Assembly: GCA_020446045.1 (NCBI GenBank)
Contig: JAGRFM010000008.1
Span: 1-52,153, forward strand
DNA length: 52,153 bases
DNA from: Nitrosomonas sp.
GTDB lineage: Bacteria; Pseudomonadota; Gammaproteobacteria; Burkholderiales; Nitrosomonadaceae
Direction: 5' to 3'
Shown piece after piece: positions 23,658-52,153 of the stretch; position 1 is the first letter of the stretch; each line of letters begins with the position of its first letter. The notes under the pieces are model-generated. The model saw only the letters and a program-made list of their open reading frames with translations, searched no databases and had not been told where the DNA came from. A program made the translations under genes and the position numbers.

Positions 23658-24062
23658 ATGAAAAACAGAATAAATTTTATCGCGACCTTTTTGCTGACAT
23701 TGTTTTTTTGCGGTTTGGCTGTCAATGTCAACGCAACACATATCTCAAAACCGGTTCTGGTTGAACCGGAAACGCATTACCGGGTCGGAGACAAAGTCAT
23801 CATCAATGGTTGGGTCGATTATAATGCACAGCCAACAGCTGATGTCTTACTTCATTTTCAAGTAACCGATCAAGCCGAGACAGTTTTGACCGAACAATCT
23901 TATCCCAGCGACAAACAGGGTCATTTTCATTTTGAATTTGATACTACAAATCAACCACCTGGCACCTATAGCATTACGATAACATCACATTGCCTGGAGA
24001 TTCATCGCAGTATTTGTTCACTCAACAGCGAAACGCTTACTTTTGAATTAAACAATCCTTAA
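23658..24062 (+). CDS. Exported protein with Ig-like fold, 134 aa
   Basis: A signal peptide (residues 1-26, ending VNVNA) precedes about 108 residues with alternating strands, such as GDKVIINGWVDYNAQPTADV, HFHFEFDTT and GTYSITITSHC. This looks like an Ig-like or MG2-type beta sandwich. Two cysteines, in SHCLEIHRSICSL, could form a disulfide. I do not recognise a named family. It ends exactly where the inverted-repeat element at 24063 begins, so its natural 3' context may have been altered by insertion. Confidence 0.6.
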   Translation: MKNRINFIATFLLTLFFCGLAVNVNATHISKPVLVEPETHYRVGDKVIINGWVDYNAQPTADVLLHFQVTDQAETVLTEQSYPSDKQGHFHFEFDTTNQPPGTYSITITSHCLEIHRSICSLNSETLTFELNNP

Positions 24063-24334
24063 CTAGGGGCTGTTCTCAATTAGTGAATTATTTCTGTTGT
24101 CCCTGAAATGGCGCCATGTCAAGTTATTCGTCGCTTATTTGGAATAACCAAACCACGCTTCTCATGTCTTGCCTGGCGCCATTTCAGGGACAACCCATTG
24201 GGCTGGACCCATTTTGGTTCTCCGCGGCGTTATCATTCGCTCATGTAGAGCGACTACACTACGCTCACTCTGCCTTGCTGAGGCCCAAAATGGATGCCAG
24301 CAGAAACAGCTCGCTAATTGAGAACAGCCCCTAG
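24063..24334. mobile_element. MITE-like element with perfect 21-bp terminal inverted repeats
   Basis: The 272-bp element has ends CTAGGGGCTGTTCTCAATTA+G (24063-24083) and the exact reverse complement (24314-24334). Inside, a second perfect 21-bp inverted pair lies at 24096-24116 and 24174-24194. Smaller pairs occur at 24123-24129/24142-24148 and 24209-24217/24285-24293. CTAG at both outer ends may be target duplication or part of the repeat. It has no credible ORF and could fold into a large cruciform. Confidence 0.9.
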
Positions 24335-24409
24335 CTGCGAAGATTAATTTCCAAATCCGGTTCGTACATGTTACCTTTAAAACTCTTTTCCACCGAATAA
24401 AGCTTCAAA

Positions 24410-25267
24410 ATGTTTTTTCCTGAACAAAGTCAGTCCTATCCGCCACATATCATTTCCGGTATTTTGTTTTCTCTTTGCATCCTGCTGTTCTTGCCCGGAT
24501 GCCAAACGGTAGACCCTCAACCATCAGACAAAAATTCACCAAATCAGGTTCTTCCTTTTTTTGAAAGCAATCTTGAAGAACGGGTTGCGGAACTGGATCG
24601 ACGCGAAAGTGAACTGGACGAGCGTGCTGCAGCAATCAGTGCCCGTGAAAGCGAAATAGTCACTGTACTTGCCGAGGTAACAAAGCAAAAAGAACAGCTG
24701 GAACGCCAACAATCAAAAAAACCGGCTACAGATTCATCAAAGCAGGCAAAAGTATCAAGACCGGCAGCAAATAATTCACCCAACCCAACAAGAACAACCC
24801 AGGCTAAAACTTCCAGAGTGGATAAGGTGGATAAAAGAAAAATTTTGGGTGGGCTGGAATATATTTTTCTTGATCCACCCGGGATTAATCTCAGCGCACG
24901 TATCGATACCGGCGCGCAAACTTCATCGCTCAACGCGCTAGATATGGTTGAATTTGAACGTGATGGAAAACCGTTTATTAAGTTTAATATCATTCATCCT
25001 GACACTGAAGAGAAAATTGAGATAACCCGGCGTGTACGGGGTCACACCAAGATAAAGAAGCATAAAATAGAGTCTCAACGCCGACCGATTGTCAGATTAC
25101 GCGTCAAGCTGGGCGATCTTGATGAACATATCAGCTTTACATTGGTTGACCGCAGTAAATTCAAACAACAGGCACTCATCGGCAGAAATTTTTTGCGTGA
25201 TCTCGCAATCGTTGATGTGAGCAAAGAATTTACGATTCCCAAAACCGACCCAACCGCACAACCGTAA
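24410..25267 (+). CDS. Lipoprotein retropepsin-like protease (ATP-dependent zinc protease family)
   Basis: The 285-aa protein begins with a lipoprotein signal (LFLPGC, Cys31), then a charged coiled coil (about 52-101) and a Ser/Lys/Asn-rich linker. The retropepsin-like domain has catalytic motif RIDTGAQTSSL (D167) and the C-terminal ALIGRNFLRDLAIVD. This family (PF05618) is found beside RimK/ATP-grasp ligases. Its stop overlaps the next start (TAATG), so the operon is tightly coupled. The lipid anchor plus coiled coil would place the protease in the periplasm at a membrane, an arrangement worth noting. The peptide substrate is unknown. Confidence 0.85.
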   Translation: MFFPEQSQSYPPHIISGILFSLCILLFLPGCQTVDPQPSDKNSPNQVLPFFESNLEERVAELDRRESELDERAAAISARESEIVTVLAEVTKQKEQLERQQSKKPATDSSKQAKVSRPAANNSPNPTRTTQAKTSRVDKVDKRKILGGLEYIFLDPPGINLSARIDTGAQTSSLNALDMVEFERDGKPFIKFNIIHPDTEEKIEITRRVRGHTKIKKHKIESQRRPIVRLRVKLGDLDEHISFTLVDRSKFKQQALIGRNFLRDLAIVDVSKEFTIPKTDPTAQP

Positions 25268-26814
25268 TGCAAGCGAGCGCCAGACTATATACTGTTGTTG
25301 TTCTGATTCTTTTTACCGGAATAGGGTTAATCCTGTATAAACATCTGGTATTGGGTTTTCCGTTGATGCCGGATGAAAAAAAATTCGTTTGGACCATTGA
25401 AGCTAAAATCGATTTTCAGGCTTACGGTGAACCGGTTATCGTTTCCCTGGCATTGCCGCCCAAAGAACCCCGCCTGACTTTTATGGAAGAGGATTTTGCC
25501 TCATCCGATTATGGTTTCAGCGAATTGTCGACTGACGAAGGGCGTCGTGGCCAATGGAGTAAACGAAGCGCACAGGGTAACCAGACCGCTTATTATCGCC
25601 TGAGTGTTTACGAAAATGACAAGATTGCTGCGTTGCAGCCTTCCGACGCACCTAAAAGACCTAAAAAACCGGAACTGGATGAAGTGTTTTTGACGGCATC
25701 CATGACGTTGCTTGACCAAGTACGCGCCAGATCTGCAAACCCGGAAATTTTTACGCGTGAATTAATACAAACATTGAATTCCCCGTCACCCAATCAGAAC
25801 CAACGGTTATTACGCAACGACAAGGCGGGTGAAGATTACAAAACCGAGTTGATTCTGAATTTATTGGCATTGGAAGGCATCAGTGCGCGGGTTGTACGCG
25901 GACTTTTCCTCGAAGATGGCAGAAGGCGGCAATCGTTAACCAATTTTGTAGAAATTCACGATGGTGAGGAATGGATATTGTTTGATCAGGATACCGGGAA
26001 AAGCGGCAAACCCAAGAATTTCCTGATCTGGCAGCGGGGCGGCCAGTCGCTGCTGGATGTTATTGGCGGCAAGAATTCTCAGGTTTCATTTTCCATCATC
26101 AAGAATGTCCATTCAACCCGCAATCTGGTTGTTGACAGCGGCATGAATACCCAAGCCGGATTGATCGATTTTTCGATATACAGTTTACCCATCGAGCAAC
26201 AGAATGCATTCAAAATGATTCTGCTGCTGCCCATCGGTGCGCTGGTCGTCGTGATCATGCGGATTCTCATCGGCATACGCACTTCGGGTACGTTTATGCC
26301 CATTTTGATTGCATTGGCACTGATACAAACGACGTTGGTTACCGGTATTGTGATATTTCTAACTGTCGTCAGCACCGGACTGATGATCCGATCCTATTTA
26401 TCACGCCTTAATTTGTTACTCGTCGCGCGCATATCGGCGGTGATTATTGTCGTTATCACCATCATTGCGAGCATCAGCATCATCAGCCATAAACTGGGAC
26501 TCAGTCAGGCGTTGCAGGTTACGTTCTTCCCGATGATTATCCTGGCCTGGACGATAGAGCGCATGTCAGTGCTTTGGGAAGAGGATGGCCCGAGAGAAGT
26601 ATTTATACAGGGCGCGGGCAGCTTGTTGACTGCCATTATCGCGTATCTGTTTATGACCAACCGGACGGTAGAATATCTGACCTTCAATTTTCCGGAACTG
26701 ATGCTGGTTAACCTGGCATTGATTCTCATACTCGGACAATATACCGGCTACCGTTTAACCGAATTGTATCGCTTTCATTCAATGGGGAAACATCATGCTT
26801 CTGACGACCGTTAA
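25267..26814 (+). CDS. Membrane protein with inactive transglutaminase domain and 7TM region
   Basis: The 515-aa protein has an N-terminal anchor (residues 9-30), then a periplasmic domain (about 45-290). That domain includes the transglutaminase-like core LLALEGISARVVRGLF and FVEIHDGEEWILFDQDTG, but the catalytic Cys is not apparent. About seven hydrophobic helices follow from residue 318 (ILLLPIGALVVVIMRILIG) to 500. This is the inactive transglutaminase plus 7TM family that accompanies retropepsin and ATP-grasp genes. It overlaps both neighbours, by 1 bp upstream and 20 bp downstream. A sensor or scaffold role is inferred. Confidence 0.85.
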   Translation: MQASARLYTVVVLILFTGIGLILYKHLVLGFPLMPDEKKFVWTIEAKIDFQAYGEPVIVSLALPPKEPRLTFMEEDFASSDYGFSELSTDEGRRGQWSKRSAQGNQTAYYRLSVYENDKIAALQPSDAPKRPKKPELDEVFLTASMTLLDQVRARSANPEIFTRELIQTLNSPSPNQNQRLLRNDKAGEDYKTELILNLLALEGISARVVRGLFLEDGRRRQSLTNFVEIHDGEEWILFDQDTGKSGKPKNFLIWQRGGQSLLDVIGGKNSQVSFSIIKNVHSTRNLVVDSGMNTQAGLIDFSIYSLPIEQQNAFKMILLLPIGALVVVIMRILIGIRTSGTFMPILIALALIQTTLVTGIVIFLTVVSTGLMIRSYLSRLNLLLVARISAVIIVVITIIASISIISHKLGLSQALQVTFFPMIILAWTIERMSVLWEEDGPREVFIQGAGSLLTAIIAYLFMTNRTVEYLTFNFPELMLVNLALILILGQYTGYRLTELYRFHSMGKHHASDDR

Positions 26815-27802
26815 ACGATTGAAAAGCATGGGTATCATCGGCATGAACCAGCGCAACTTCGGCCTGGTAGCCCGATATAATCCGCGCCGCCTTTATCCGC
26901 TGGTCGATGACAAATTAAAGACCAAGCGCCTGGCGCAGGCTGCAGGTATTACGGTGCCGAAACTGCTTGGCACGCTGCATTATCAGCATGACGTCAAGCA
27001 CCTCAAGGAGATGCTCAGTGCGTATAATCAGTTTGTTATCAAACCGGTTAAAGGCAGTGGTGGAAAAGGCATTCTGGTGATCACCGAGCAAGATCATAAT
27101 CTTTATTACAAACCCAGCGGCGATGCCGTGAAACTACGGCATATCGAACGCCATGTTTCAAATATTCTGAGTGGTTTGCATAGCCTGGGCGGCAAACCGG
27201 ACTCTGTCATGATTGAATCACTGATACAAATTGATCCGGTTTTTGAAGACTATAGTTACGAAGGCATTCCTGATCTTCGCGTCATCGTCTTGAAAGGATA
27301 CCCCATTATGGCCATGTTGCGATTGGCAACCCACGCATCGGACGGCAGGGCCAATCTGCATCAGGGTGCCGTAGGAGTGGGCATTGATATCGGCACGGGC
27401 GAGGCTTTACATGCTGTGCAATACGGTAATCCGATATATTTCCATCCGGATACGCGCAAACCATTCTCTAATCTGGTCGTGCCGCATTGGAACAAACTGC
27501 TTGCATTGGCAGCGGCCTGCTACGAAATGACAGGACTGGGTTATTTAGGAGTCGATATCGTTCTGGACAGGGACCAAGGCCCGATGATTATCGAACTTAA
27601 TGCCCGCCCAGGTCTATCGATACAAGTTGCCAATTTTGCCGGTCTGGCGCCACGTGTTGCGGCCGTTGAAGCTTTAGAAAAAACCGATCCCGACCCGCAA
27701 TCTCGTGTTGCTTTCAGTCAACAGCAATTTGCCGCGAACAGAGATATCATCCGTCCACGAAGACGCACCAGGCAGGCTGCGTCAACACTGATTCTTAATT
27801 AG
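26795..27802 (+). CDS. ATP-grasp alpha-L-glutamate ligase-like protein
   Basis: The 335-aa protein belongs to the RimK-related ATP-grasp group that makes amide bonds with an acyl-phosphate intermediate. The ATP-grasp strands are KTKRLAQAAGITVPKLL, FVIKPVKGSGGKGILVI (about 81-97) and the Mg-binding MIIELNARPGLSIQ near residue 268. The substrate is unknown. It follows the inactive transglutaminase gene with a 20-bp overlap and ends in the TAG that also starts the element at 27799. With the upstream protease it could form an add-and-cleave pair acting on the same peptide, which is inference. Confidence 0.88.
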   Translation: MLLTTVKRLKSMGIIGMNQRNFGLVARYNPRRLYPLVDDKLKTKRLAQAAGITVPKLLGTLHYQHDVKHLKEMLSAYNQFVIKPVKGSGGKGILVITEQDHNLYYKPSGDAVKLRHIERHVSNILSGLHSLGGKPDSVMIESLIQIDPVFEDYSYEGIPDLRVIVLKGYPIMAMLRLATHASDGRANLHQGAVGVGIDIGTGEALHAVQYGNPIYFHPDTRKPFSNLVVPHWNKLLALAAACYEMTGLGYLGVDIVLDRDQGPMIIELNARPGLSIQVANFAGLAPRVAAVEALEKTDPDPQSRVAFSQQQFAANRDIIRPRRRTRQAASTLILN

Positions 27803-28740: not shown

Positions 28741-30711
28741 CTACGACTCCCCTTCTCTGGTTAAAGCACGGTAACGCGCCAAAGCCCATACGGGGAAATA
28801 TTTGGAATAACCGTGATACTTCAGATAAAAAACACGCGGAAATCCTGGCGCGGTAAACCACGGTTCTTCCCACAGGCCATCGGACGATTGCGTACGCAGC
28901 AGATAATTGACACCATCCTGAACCGCTTGGCTTTTCACTTCGCCAACGGCCATTAAACCGAGTAGCGCCCAGGCCGTCTGAAACGATGTGCTGGACTCAA
29001 AACAGCCAGCCTGCTGCAAATCAAAGTAGGAATCATTGGTTTCGCCCCAACCGCCATCTTCACGCTGCACAGACTTCAACCATTGCACGGCGCGCCGAAT
29101 GGAGATATGGTCTGTTTCCAGCTTGGCCAACCGTAAAGCTTCAAGCACTGACCATGTGCCATAAATATAGTTTGTTCCCCAACGACCAAACCAGGAACCA
29201 TCAGCTTCCTGCTCTCTCAGCAAGAATTCAATGCCACGCTGGACGGCTGCCTGGTGATCTGGTTTACCGTACAGACTGAGTAATCCGACGCACCGTGCGG
29301 TGACATCACTGGTGGGCGGATCAATCAATGCACCGTGGTCGGCGAACGGAATTTCATTAAGATAGTGATACGTATTGTCAACGTCAAACGCTGCAAAACC
29401 ACCGTTATTGGACTGCATACCAGCGAGCCAATTGGCAGCACGATCAATTGCCTGTTGATATGTCTGCACATTAGTAAGTGTCTGCGCCTGTACCAAAGCC
29501 CAGGCCACCGCAGCCGTGTCGTCCAGATCCGGATAATGCGGGTTGGCGTATTGAAACGCCCAGCCGCCACCCGGTAAATCGGGGCATTTATCACGCCAGT
29601 CTCCGGGTTCGTCCAATACCTGTTTGGTGATTGTCCAGTCCATCGCTGCAAGCACGGGTTTCTGATCCGTTTCCGGATCTTCCTGCAAAGCCAGCCCGGT
29701 TAACACGGTATCCCAAATGGGAGATGTACAGGGTTGGCACCAAGCCTGTTCACCTTCGTTGATCAACAATCCGAGCAGCGCATTTTTGCATTGCACTCGA
29801 TTGGGATGATCTTCCGGATATCCCAACAAAGCCAGTGCTTCATAAGCATTGACCATAGCCGGAAAAATGGCGCCTATACCGCATTCACCGTTTAACCGCT
29901 CAAGCGTCCAGCGTTCAGCGCGGCGAATCGAATAACGGCGCATAAATTCAGGCAGGCGCGGTTCAAATTTAGATAAAATGCGTTCCACCCACATAAAGAA
30001 ACGCTTCAAGCGCGTTTCCGCATGAGGGAAATAATCCTTTTCCTGTTCAGGTGGAATGGTAAATAATTCACGAATATCGACATTTTTCGGATTTGCCGCT
30101 TTCGCTTTTAAAGTACACAAAATGGAAAGCGGCACCATGACGGTTCGCGACCAGTAGGAAATTTTACTCAGATGAAACGGGAACCAGCTTGGCAATAAAA
30201 TTAATTCCGAAGGAACCACCGGCACCCCCCGCCACGGTATCTGCCGGTACATGGCGAGCAGCAACCGGGTAAATACATTTGATCGGGCTGCGCCACCGTG
30301 CTTCAGAATGGCCTCACGAGCTCGAACCATATGCGGTTCATCGGGAGAGTCTCCTACCAGTTTCAAGGCATAATAGGATTTAACCGTACAACTGATGTCA
30401 AAATCGCCACCGTAATACAAAGGCCAGCCATTATGCGAGGAATCCTGTTTTGAACGGATAAATCGCGCGATTTTGTTTTCAAGCACGGTATCGATCTCAT
30501 TCATAAAATGCATCATGAGAATATATTCGGCCGGTATCGTACAATCCGCTTCTAATGGGAAACACCAGTGACCACCCGGTTCTTGCATAGACAATAACGC
30601 TGACCGTGCTTTATTGAATTGTTCGTCGAGTACTGCCGCACTCGTTTCATCTTGCTTGGTCAAACCAGCATCATTCTGGCTTATTTTTAAATTTTCATGC
30701 GTTTGGTTCAT
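28741..30711 (-). CDS. shc: Squalene-hopene cyclase
   Basis: The 656-aa enzyme cyclises squalene to hopene. The catalytic acid motif DLDDTA is at 395-400, and several QW repeats are seen (for example GGWGETNDSYFD and GSWFGRWGTNYIYG). The N-terminal SALLSMQEPGGHWCFPLEAD is typical. Length matches bacterial SHCs. It is membrane-associated and sits between hpnG and an MlaA-like gene. Confidence 0.97.
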   Translation of the reverse strand: MNQTHENLKISQNDAGLTKQDETSAAVLDEQFNKARSALLSMQEPGGHWCFPLEADCTIPAEYILMMHFMNEIDTVLENKIARFIRSKQDSSHNGWPLYYGGDFDISCTVKSYYALKLVGDSPDEPHMVRAREAILKHGGAARSNVFTRLLLAMYRQIPWRGVPVVPSELILLPSWFPFHLSKISYWSRTVMVPLSILCTLKAKAANPKNVDIRELFTIPPEQEKDYFPHAETRLKRFFMWVERILSKFEPRLPEFMRRYSIRRAERWTLERLNGECGIGAIFPAMVNAYEALALLGYPEDHPNRVQCKNALLGLLINEGEQAWCQPCTSPIWDTVLTGLALQEDPETDQKPVLAAMDWTITKQVLDEPGDWRDKCPDLPGGGWAFQYANPHYPDLDDTAAVAWALVQAQTLTNVQTYQQAIDRAANWLAGMQSNNGGFAAFDVDNTYHYLNEIPFADHGALIDPPTSDVTARCVGLLSLYGKPDHQAAVQRGIEFLLREQEADGSWFGRWGTNYIYGTWSVLEALRLAKLETDHISIRRAVQWLKSVQREDGGWGETNDSYFDLQQAGCFESSTSFQTAWALLGLMAVGEVKSQAVQDGVNYLLRTQSSDGLWEEPWFTAPGFPRVFYLKYHGYSKYFPVWALARYRALTREGES

Positions 30712-30814: not shown

Positions 30815-31648
30815 TCATCCTGGCGGCTTTTCATTTCCTTTTACATCAAATGGATTATCCAGAAATAATTCTTCATCATCATAAAGTTTGAGTGGTGGAT
30901 TTCCATCGTAAATCAAAAATTCACGTTGTTGTAGTGAAGCTTCCCGGACGAACAAATAAGGGTCCAGTGCAGCCTGGTCACGAATACGCATCGGTCCGGC
31001 AAGACGCGCACGCTTGTCAATCGCACCCAGCACAGTCAATGGCACAAAGACGGGAGCACCGACAACATAACCGGCATAAAACAGCACATTGGTTACGACA
31101 GTTACGGGTACGCCAATCACATCGCGCTCACTACTCGGCCCCATAATCGGAATAAACAGGTACGATCCCGAATCAAAACCCCAAACCGCCAGTGTCTGAC
31201 CAAAATCCTCGTCATGCTTCTCTAATCCCATATGCGTAGCCATGTCAAACAACCCTAGCATGCCAATAGTCGAATTGACTGCAAAGCGCAACCCATCGAA
31301 AAAGCCCTGTTTTATTTTTCCCTGCAAAAACGCATTGAGCACGACATTGGGATAAGATAGATTGTCATAAAAATTTCCGATTGATCGCTGAGCCGCATTA
31401 GGCACATAATCAACATACGCATCAACCACAGGCTCAAAAAGCATTCGGTCTACTTTGTCTGTAAAATTGTAGGATACCCGGTTAATATCTTCATGCGGGT
31501 CAATCGGATCTGTATCGACGCCGTCTTTTTTTGCAATCGTTGAGCAACCTTGCAGCATCAAAATACAAAACAACAAAACGATAGTCTTGCACAAATTATC
31601 GTTTGCCTTAGGGCATAAGTCACTGAAAACCTTAACCACCTCACTCAT
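30815..31648 (-). CDS. mlaA: MlaA/VacJ-family outer-membrane lipoprotein
   Basis: The 277-aa protein has lipobox LMLQGC (Cys35) and the VacJ core. The core includes DPHEDINRVSYNFTDKVDRM, RSIGNFYDNLSYP and the signature DFGQTLAVWGFDSGSYLFIP with IMGPSSERD. MlaA removes mislocalised phospholipids from the outer leaflet through MlaC and the MlaFEDB ABC transporter. No other mla genes are here. Its position inside the hopanoid operon suggests hopanoid or lipid trafficking, by analogy with the MlaC-like HpnM. Confidence 0.9.
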   Translation of the reverse strand: MSEVVKVFSDLCPKANDNLCKTIVLLFCILMLQGCSTIAKKDGVDTDPIDPHEDINRVSYNFTDKVDRMLFEPVVDAYVDYVPNAAQRSIGNFYDNLSYPNVVLNAFLQGKIKQGFFDGLRFAVNSTIGMLGLFDMATHMGLEKHDEDFGQTLAVWGFDSGSYLFIPIMGPSSERDVIGVPVTVVTNVLFYAGYVVGAPVFVPLTVLGAIDKRARLAGPMRIRDQAALDPYLFVREASLQQREFLIYDGNPPLKLYDDEELFLDNPFDVKGNEKPPG

Positions 31649-52038: not shown

Positions 52039-52153
52039 TTAGGGGGTGTCGTCATGTGTTATGTGCATTTATGCGTGTGCAGATTTTTGATGAATGTTTG
52101 TGAAAAGTGCGCAGGGCATAGCCTTAGCTATGTCCAAGTACCTTGAACAAGCA
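52039..52153. mobile_element. Small inverted-repeat element, family 2 copy 2, cut by window end
   Basis: TTAGGGGGTGTCGTCATG and the following 95 bp match 27799-27915 closely, including the CATAGC/GCTATG hairpin. The right end is outside the window. Confidence 0.8.

Follow-up and report, generated by a model that had tools for sequence, protein, structure and literature searches.

An rloABC-type operon with a putative lipoprotein retropepsin in Nitrosomonas sp., and two subclasses of RloA and RloB

What could a predicted lipoprotein protease, an inactive transglutaminase-like membrane protein and an ATP-grasp enzyme do together when their genes overlap at both junctions? This question is raised by three genes of Nitrosomonas sp. 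(assembly GCA_020446045.1, contig JAGRFM010000008.1), of which we analyzed positions 1 to 52,153 of the contig, hereafter the window. The draft genome (3.57 Mb, 242 contigs) is 97.5% complete. The trio is almost certainly an operon of the rloABC type whose RloA is a lipoprotein. Its genes and their arrangement match rloABC of Pseudomonas (Lormand et al. 2025, PMC12239564), and the trio is thus not novel in itself but a named and studied system. What is new is a division of RloA and RloB into two deep subclasses, one with a lipoprotein and one with a soluble protease.

Identity and linkage of the three genes

The three overlapping genes proved real, with one nucleotide shared between rloA and rloB (TAATG) and 20 between rloB and rloC, all in one order on one strand (Table 1). 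RloA matches PF05618 (E 2e-30), RloB PF14400 (E 6e-49) and PF14402 (E 5e-108), and RloC PF14397 (E 7e-99). The same trio is reportedly described in a 2009 survey of ATP-grasp enzymes. Judged by RloB, the closest relative is Nitrosomonas sp. Nm51 (90% identity). A scan of positions 23950-24500 found neither a promoter nor a terminator.

Table 1. Positions of the operon, its parts and the adjacent repeats in the window
Feature	Positions	Strand	Basis
RloA, retropepsin-type aspartic protease, predicted lipoprotein, 285 amino acids	24410..25267	+	Open reading frame (ORF), Pfam, structure search, NCBIfam scores
Signal peptide and lipobox LPGC of RloA, predicted lipidated Cys31, +2 residue Gln	24410..24502	+	Pattern, sequence reading
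Stalk of RloA, residues 50-104, heptad pattern, no Pro/Gly	24557..24721	+	28 of 1000 shuffles as high
Retropepsin domain of RloA, DTG at residues 166-168, no cysteine	24842..25243	+	
RloB, N-terminal helix, inactive transglutaminase-like periplasmic domain and seven transmembrane helices, 515 amino acids	25267..26814	+	ORF, Pfam, model
RloC, ATP-grasp, alpha-L-glutamate-ligase-like, 335 amino acids	26795..27802	+	ORF, Pfam, TIGR02291, PDB comparison
Miniature inverted-repeat element separating rloA from the gene before it, 272 bp, 37-nucleotide inverted ends	24063..24334	.	
High-copy short repeat, supplies part of the rloC stop codon	27798..27944	.	

The protease domain of RloA matches the crystal structures of RloA/RloA2 (9g58, E 1e-12; 9g59, E 6e-12), and its DTG motif and basic contact residues are intact. 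In P. aeruginosa RloA, R114 and R137 are required for polyglutamate cleavage (PMC12239564); mapped by spacing, their equivalents are R225, present in 39/39 sequences, and R248, present in at least 90%, while R164, mapped in the same way and kept in at least 90%, is the counterpart of P. aeruginosa K46. Against the narrow NCBIfam models the protein reached no cut-off, scoring 84 of 210 bits for RloA3, 75 of 250 for RloA2 and 66 of 280 for RloA1. Like the Pseudomonas operon, then, the window encodes the same three families in the same order, with a DTG protease having a basic substrate channel, an inactive transglutaminase protein with seven transmembrane helices and an ATP-grasp enzyme. The two differ in that the Pseudomonas proteases carry signal peptides and a disulfide, whose two cysteines are described as conserved among periplasmic orthologues (PMC12239564), whereas the window RloA carries a lipobox and a stalk and lacks the disulfide cysteine pair, there being no cysteine in its protease domain. 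The words lipoprotein and coiled occur nowhere in the main text of PMC12239564.

For RloB, a model (predicted local distance difference test score 83.9, predicted template modelling score 0.67; alignment of 57 sequences) begins with a helix, continues with a domain rich in beta structure and ends in a helical region. The predicted soluble domain resembles 3isr, a putative transglutaminase-type cysteine protease (Foldseek E 1e-10); the three of 767 PDB matches with E ≤ 0.001 are all 3isr chains, and none of 910 matches to viral structures reached that value. Cysteines are absent from the window RloB and from 67 of 81 RloBs overall (80 named loci plus the window), which fits the earlier description of the transglutaminase as inactive. 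The NCBIfam RloB score (385 of 900 bits) lies under the cut-off of a narrow model.

RloC scores 463 bits against TIGR02291 (alpha-L-glutamate ligase-like; cut-off 314), and its nearest relatives in PDB are RimK-like alpha-L-glutamate ligases and cyanophycin synthases, enzymes that polymerise amino acids. ATP-grasp residues are near-invariant across 113 RloC sequences, and RloC is accordingly predicted to be a ligase with an intact site.

That the three genes form one unit, as had been proposed, is supported by their distribution. When named genomes were scanned with an RloB alignment, at least 577 relatives were confirmed; in the best 80 of these, which are nearest to the window RloB and hence an uneven sample, the order is always A-B-C, on a single strand. 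With the most upstream starts assumed, B and C lie within 30 nucleotides in 78 loci and A and B in 66. An even draw across the class yielded 184 genomes, 39 of them with RloB above cut-off. The 39 RloB loci comprise 29 with A-B-C, six with B-C and no A found alongside (one a fusion), three that lack C and have A on the other strand, and one with B alone. A strong RloC (≥200 bits) was present in 35 of the 39 RloB genomes versus none of the other 145, and PF05618 in 37 versus 47.

Some loci depart from the common arrangement. Divergent RloB-RloC pairs at L068, L069, L070 and L071 (fused in the last), with no RloA found alongside, are possibly a sister system; the pairs of L068 and L070 are followed by a TPR protein and an exported-looking protein of 390-410 amino acids without Pfam match. 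On a contig labelled Arcobacter (L154:8470-9027), a second RloA lies immediately 3' of RloC.

Lipoprotein and soluble subclasses

An RloB tree was built from 71 of 118 sequences, after removal of near-identical copies, of divergent sequences and of those whose RloA has no clear N-terminus. It separates 51 lipoprotein rows from 20 others (19 soluble and the doubtful L043, whose pattern lipobox is probably false), both with a Shimodaira-Hasegawa-like approximate likelihood ratio test support of 100. In the even draw, six loci, window included, have the RloB motif TSGTFMP, and all six RloAs carry a lipobox by pattern. Among the 21 loci with TFGTFMP and an RloA, 18 RloAs lack a lipobox and have at least two cysteines, two have neither trait and one has a probably false lipobox match; the RloA of this Pseudomonas-like subclass is soluble, mostly with two cysteines. 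The lipoboxes of L044 and L146 lie deep inside over-long ORFs. In the 80 named loci, the variable RloB motif position is Ser in 78 and Ala in two, and the pattern finds a lipobox in 74 RloAs; as to the other six, the ORF of L093 starts too far upstream and has its lipobox at a later position, L151 is a near-miss, L124 is cut by a short frame, L126 may start late, and none was seen in L143 and L159. Since this is one split with two independent pairs, the joint occurrence of lipobox, cysteines and RloB motif describes a clade rather than a statistically testable association.

The N-terminal features singled out in the window protease, a lipid anchor and a coiled coil, have counterparts in homologues, where a lipobox and a linker mark the lipoprotein subclass. 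In the window itself the lipobox holds by pattern, and the signal sequence that contains it predicts an exported rather than cytoplasmic protease. The 55 residues of the stalk contain neither Pro nor Gly, and a coiled coil is likely, the statistical signal from this single protein being modest (heptad score equalled by 28/1000 shuffles). An Asp at position +2 occurs in 1/75 of these named-locus lipoproteins, window included. By the E. coli sorting rule, scarcity of +2 Asp points to the outer membrane, where lipoprotein RloAs would then be located.

The 80 lipoprotein RloAs counted in this subclass comprise seven tandem proteins, one single domain with an insertion (L060) and 72 single-domain proteins. 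In these 72, the linker measures 32-119 residues and contains a cysteine in 45, a heptad score of at least 0.5, a lenient threshold, in 42, and either in 69, with neither in L048, L112 and L156; their protease domains have no cysteine in 70 and one in two. Shuffling supports the heptad pattern strongly in Aeromonas L121 (0 of 1000 as high), Photobacterium L103 (0) and Vibrio L134 (2) and marginally in L082 (37) and L158 (44), as in the window.

The seven tandem RloAs (L092, L095, L096, L097, L100, L101, L102), from six Endozoicomonas and one Oceanospirillales record, contain two complete retropepsin domains in one chain. Without exception, each half of each protein keeps DTGA and a pair of arginines with a spacing of 23, and the linkers, of 60-67 residues, have neither a cysteine nor a heptad pattern in any. 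In an AlphaFold2 model of L096 (mean predicted local distance difference test score 63.7), the lobes individually match RloA-type crystal structures, and matches to two-lobed renin and plasmepsin are weak (prob 0.4-0.6). Pepsin-type (A1) proteases likewise have two aspartic half-sites per chain; unlike in these, each half of a tandem RloA is a complete RloA domain that has a DTGA and the two contact arginines to itself. Among the papers listed in searches of open-licence PMC literature, no title describes a lipoprotein or tandem RloA.

The genome also encodes an exported orphan retropepsin, a second PF05618 protein of 182 amino acids away from any rloB (L176:6188-6736), which has a signal peptide by eye, no lipobox and no cysteine, and whose nearest NCBIfam model is RloA2, below cut-off.

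Flanking repeats and neighboring genes

The original prediction regarded the trio as a module bounded by two mobile elements. Both are genuine genome repeats: the element at 24063 has five further near-full-length copies (81-86%) and two at 68-74%, and the repeat at 27799 has at least 39 further matches of 79-142 bases (82-98%; 40 of 78 candidates scored). A further copy of the latter, at 89%, lies near the window end (52039-52150). Their role as a boundary did not stand, because neither element was matched in 11 related Nitrosomonas loci (blastn, E 1e-5), in all of which lpd, and in nine also a small immunoglobulin-like gene, stands ahead of the trio. A mobile cassette delimited by the two repeats would account for their presence on both sides, but they belong to different families and the 11 loci contradict this explanation for the genus; it is almost certainly wrong. 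The operon is old, and the elements were inserted next to it later and are incidental to it.

Downstream genes for a purine-phosphorylase-like protein, squalene-hopene cyclase and MlaA were found in two of the 11 loci, some contigs being short. In the window, squalene-hopene cyclase (28741-30711) and the MlaA lipoprotein (30815-31648) are encoded on the opposite strand; of the 11 loci, L082 and L099 have them at the same place.

A proposed mechanism and its alternatives

For the operon as a whole we propose that a product is made, handed over and trimmed, a mechanism that could equally prove right or wrong. In the cytoplasm, RloC would spend ATP on linking acidic amino acids (alpha-glutamate most likely) to one another as a chain or to an acceptor. 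RloB would then pass the product through the inner membrane, and RloA, whose lipid probably anchors it in the outer membrane, would reach inwards on its stalk and trim it. Because retropepsins work as dimers, the stalk, as a coiled coil or a cysteine-bearing linker, is proposed to keep two RloA chains together; in one marine clade, fusion of two protease domains would have replaced it. That the product is an alpha-glutamate polymer is a tentative suggestion. The full scheme, in which RloC and RloB would produce a non-ribosomal acidic poly-amino acid and send it into the periplasm, where a lipid-tethered, dimeric, stalked RloA cuts it to length, with coil, cysteine linker and fusion as alternative ways to enforce the dimer, is rather unlikely to hold in every part.

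We infer polymer, export and dimerising stalk from the sequence facts above together with published genetics, with which the addition and cleavage of peptides across the membrane, as originally suggested, agree (PMC12239564). P. aeruginosa RloA is a secreted retropepsin-like protease that cuts reporters with 8 or 10 glutamates and not those with six or fewer. A triple protease mutant does not grow in low salt, and deletion of rloB or rloC fully rescues low-salt growth and partially rescues the other defects (PMC12239564). More broadly, the Pseudomonas rlo genes affect low-salt survival, biofilm and beta-lactam tolerance (PMC12239564), and in Shewanella vesiculosa disruption of the gene for the inactive transglutaminase with seven transmembrane helices leads to more vesicles (PMC12096838). 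An untrimmed periplasmic polyanion would draw in water and swell the periplasm in low salt, which, we infer, would explain both the failure of the protease-less strain and its rescue by loss of rloB or rloC.

Several observations weigh against this mechanism. No RloC product or demonstrated RloC activity was found in the literature. Single rloB and rloC mutants show milder defects of their own (PMC12239564), so that the product is not merely toxic. A strong RloC is missing from 4/39 RloB genomes, and some RloC-RloB pairs have no adjoining RloA. The RloAs of L120 (5101-5931) and L045 (8947-9735) have INTN and DPG in place of a normal DTG and are thus perhaps inactive proteases still retained in the operon. 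The membrane part of RloB matches no solved structure, leaving transport unsupported by fold. As to the stalk, the heptad score was at chance level in 9/15 shuffled proteins (166-598 of 1000), besides being modest in the window RloA; with a coil well supported in some branches only, a dimerising stalk is put forward hypothetically. All seven tandem RloAs belong to a single clade and hence count as one event.

A likeness of RloB to CapC/PgsC, the membrane subunit of poly-gamma-glutamate synthase and, like the proposed RloB, a membrane protein in a poly-amino-acid pathway, was considered and was not supported. Homology of the RloB membrane part to CapC received hhalign probabilities of 0.1-1.9%, and profile similarity was not clearly above block-shuffled CapC controls, of which 0 to 25 of 30 scored as high as the forward comparison, varying among the six pairs (0/30 when close RloBs were set against the entire membrane region of CapC, 2 to 25 for the others). 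PF14102 had no match in 12 RloBs. As the CapC alignment held five sequences only, the link is unsupported, not disproved. PF14102 was matched in 4/299 phylum genomes drawn, and the present genome encodes a 1086-amino-acid protein with two such domains (G000:C57:5725-8985, L038), lying between an 893-amino-acid protein that weakly matches HATPase and large proteins of no known family.

A further parallel to the operon is RimB-RimK, which acts in glutamylation of ribosomal protein S6 and likewise pairs a retropepsin with an ATP-grasp glutamate ligase; RimB is cytoplasmic and has no membrane partner (PMC12239564), whereas the window protease is predicted to be exported. Most rloABC organisms also carry RimB and RimK (PMC12239564). 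The present draft genome appears to be an exception, RimK not having been found in it (the other two PF08443 matches are urea carboxylase and glutathione synthase). A cytoplasmic RimB/RimK reading of the trio is contradicted by the exported protease and by this result. A periplasmic variant, in which RloC would glutamylate an envelope protein or RloB and RloA would shorten the tag, with no free polymer, is possible though doubtful. It parallels what RimK and RimB do to S6 in the cytoplasm and draws on the relatedness of RloC to RimK and of RloA to RimB (55 of 200 bits on the RimB model), as well as on cleavage of glutamylated RpsF by RloA in vitro (PMC12239564). However, no acceptor is known, tagged proteins would have to be exported or modified across the membrane, and the missing RimK indicates that the two modules are separable.

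Cell-shape and beta-lactam phenotypes of Pseudomonas mutants would suit an action on peptidoglycan, with RloC and RloB adding amino acids to precursor peptides and RloA removing them, but RloA prefers runs of at least eight glutamates, unlike peptidoglycan peptides (PMC12239564), which makes this improbable. A scaffold or signalling role, in which the dead transglutaminase domain would let RloB sense the periplasm while RloC would not act as a ligase, could draw on that dead site and on the RloB genomes lacking a strong RloC; it is hard to reconcile with the conservation of the RloC ATP-grasp residues and we hold it very improbable.

Should the full scheme hold, the periplasmic acidic poly-amino acid would be the peptide counterpart of the osmoregulated periplasmic glucans. 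The domain fusion in RloA would repeat a step proposed for the origin of pepsin, and the tandem proteins would be living intermediates, halfway from retropepsins that work as homodimers to pepsin-like enzymes with two lobes. The lipoprotein subclass, sampled here in Vibrio, Aeromonas and Nitrosomonas, suggests where RloA is located and how its dimer is possibly enforced, and the stalked, cysteine-linked and tandem forms provide natural variants with which both can be tested.

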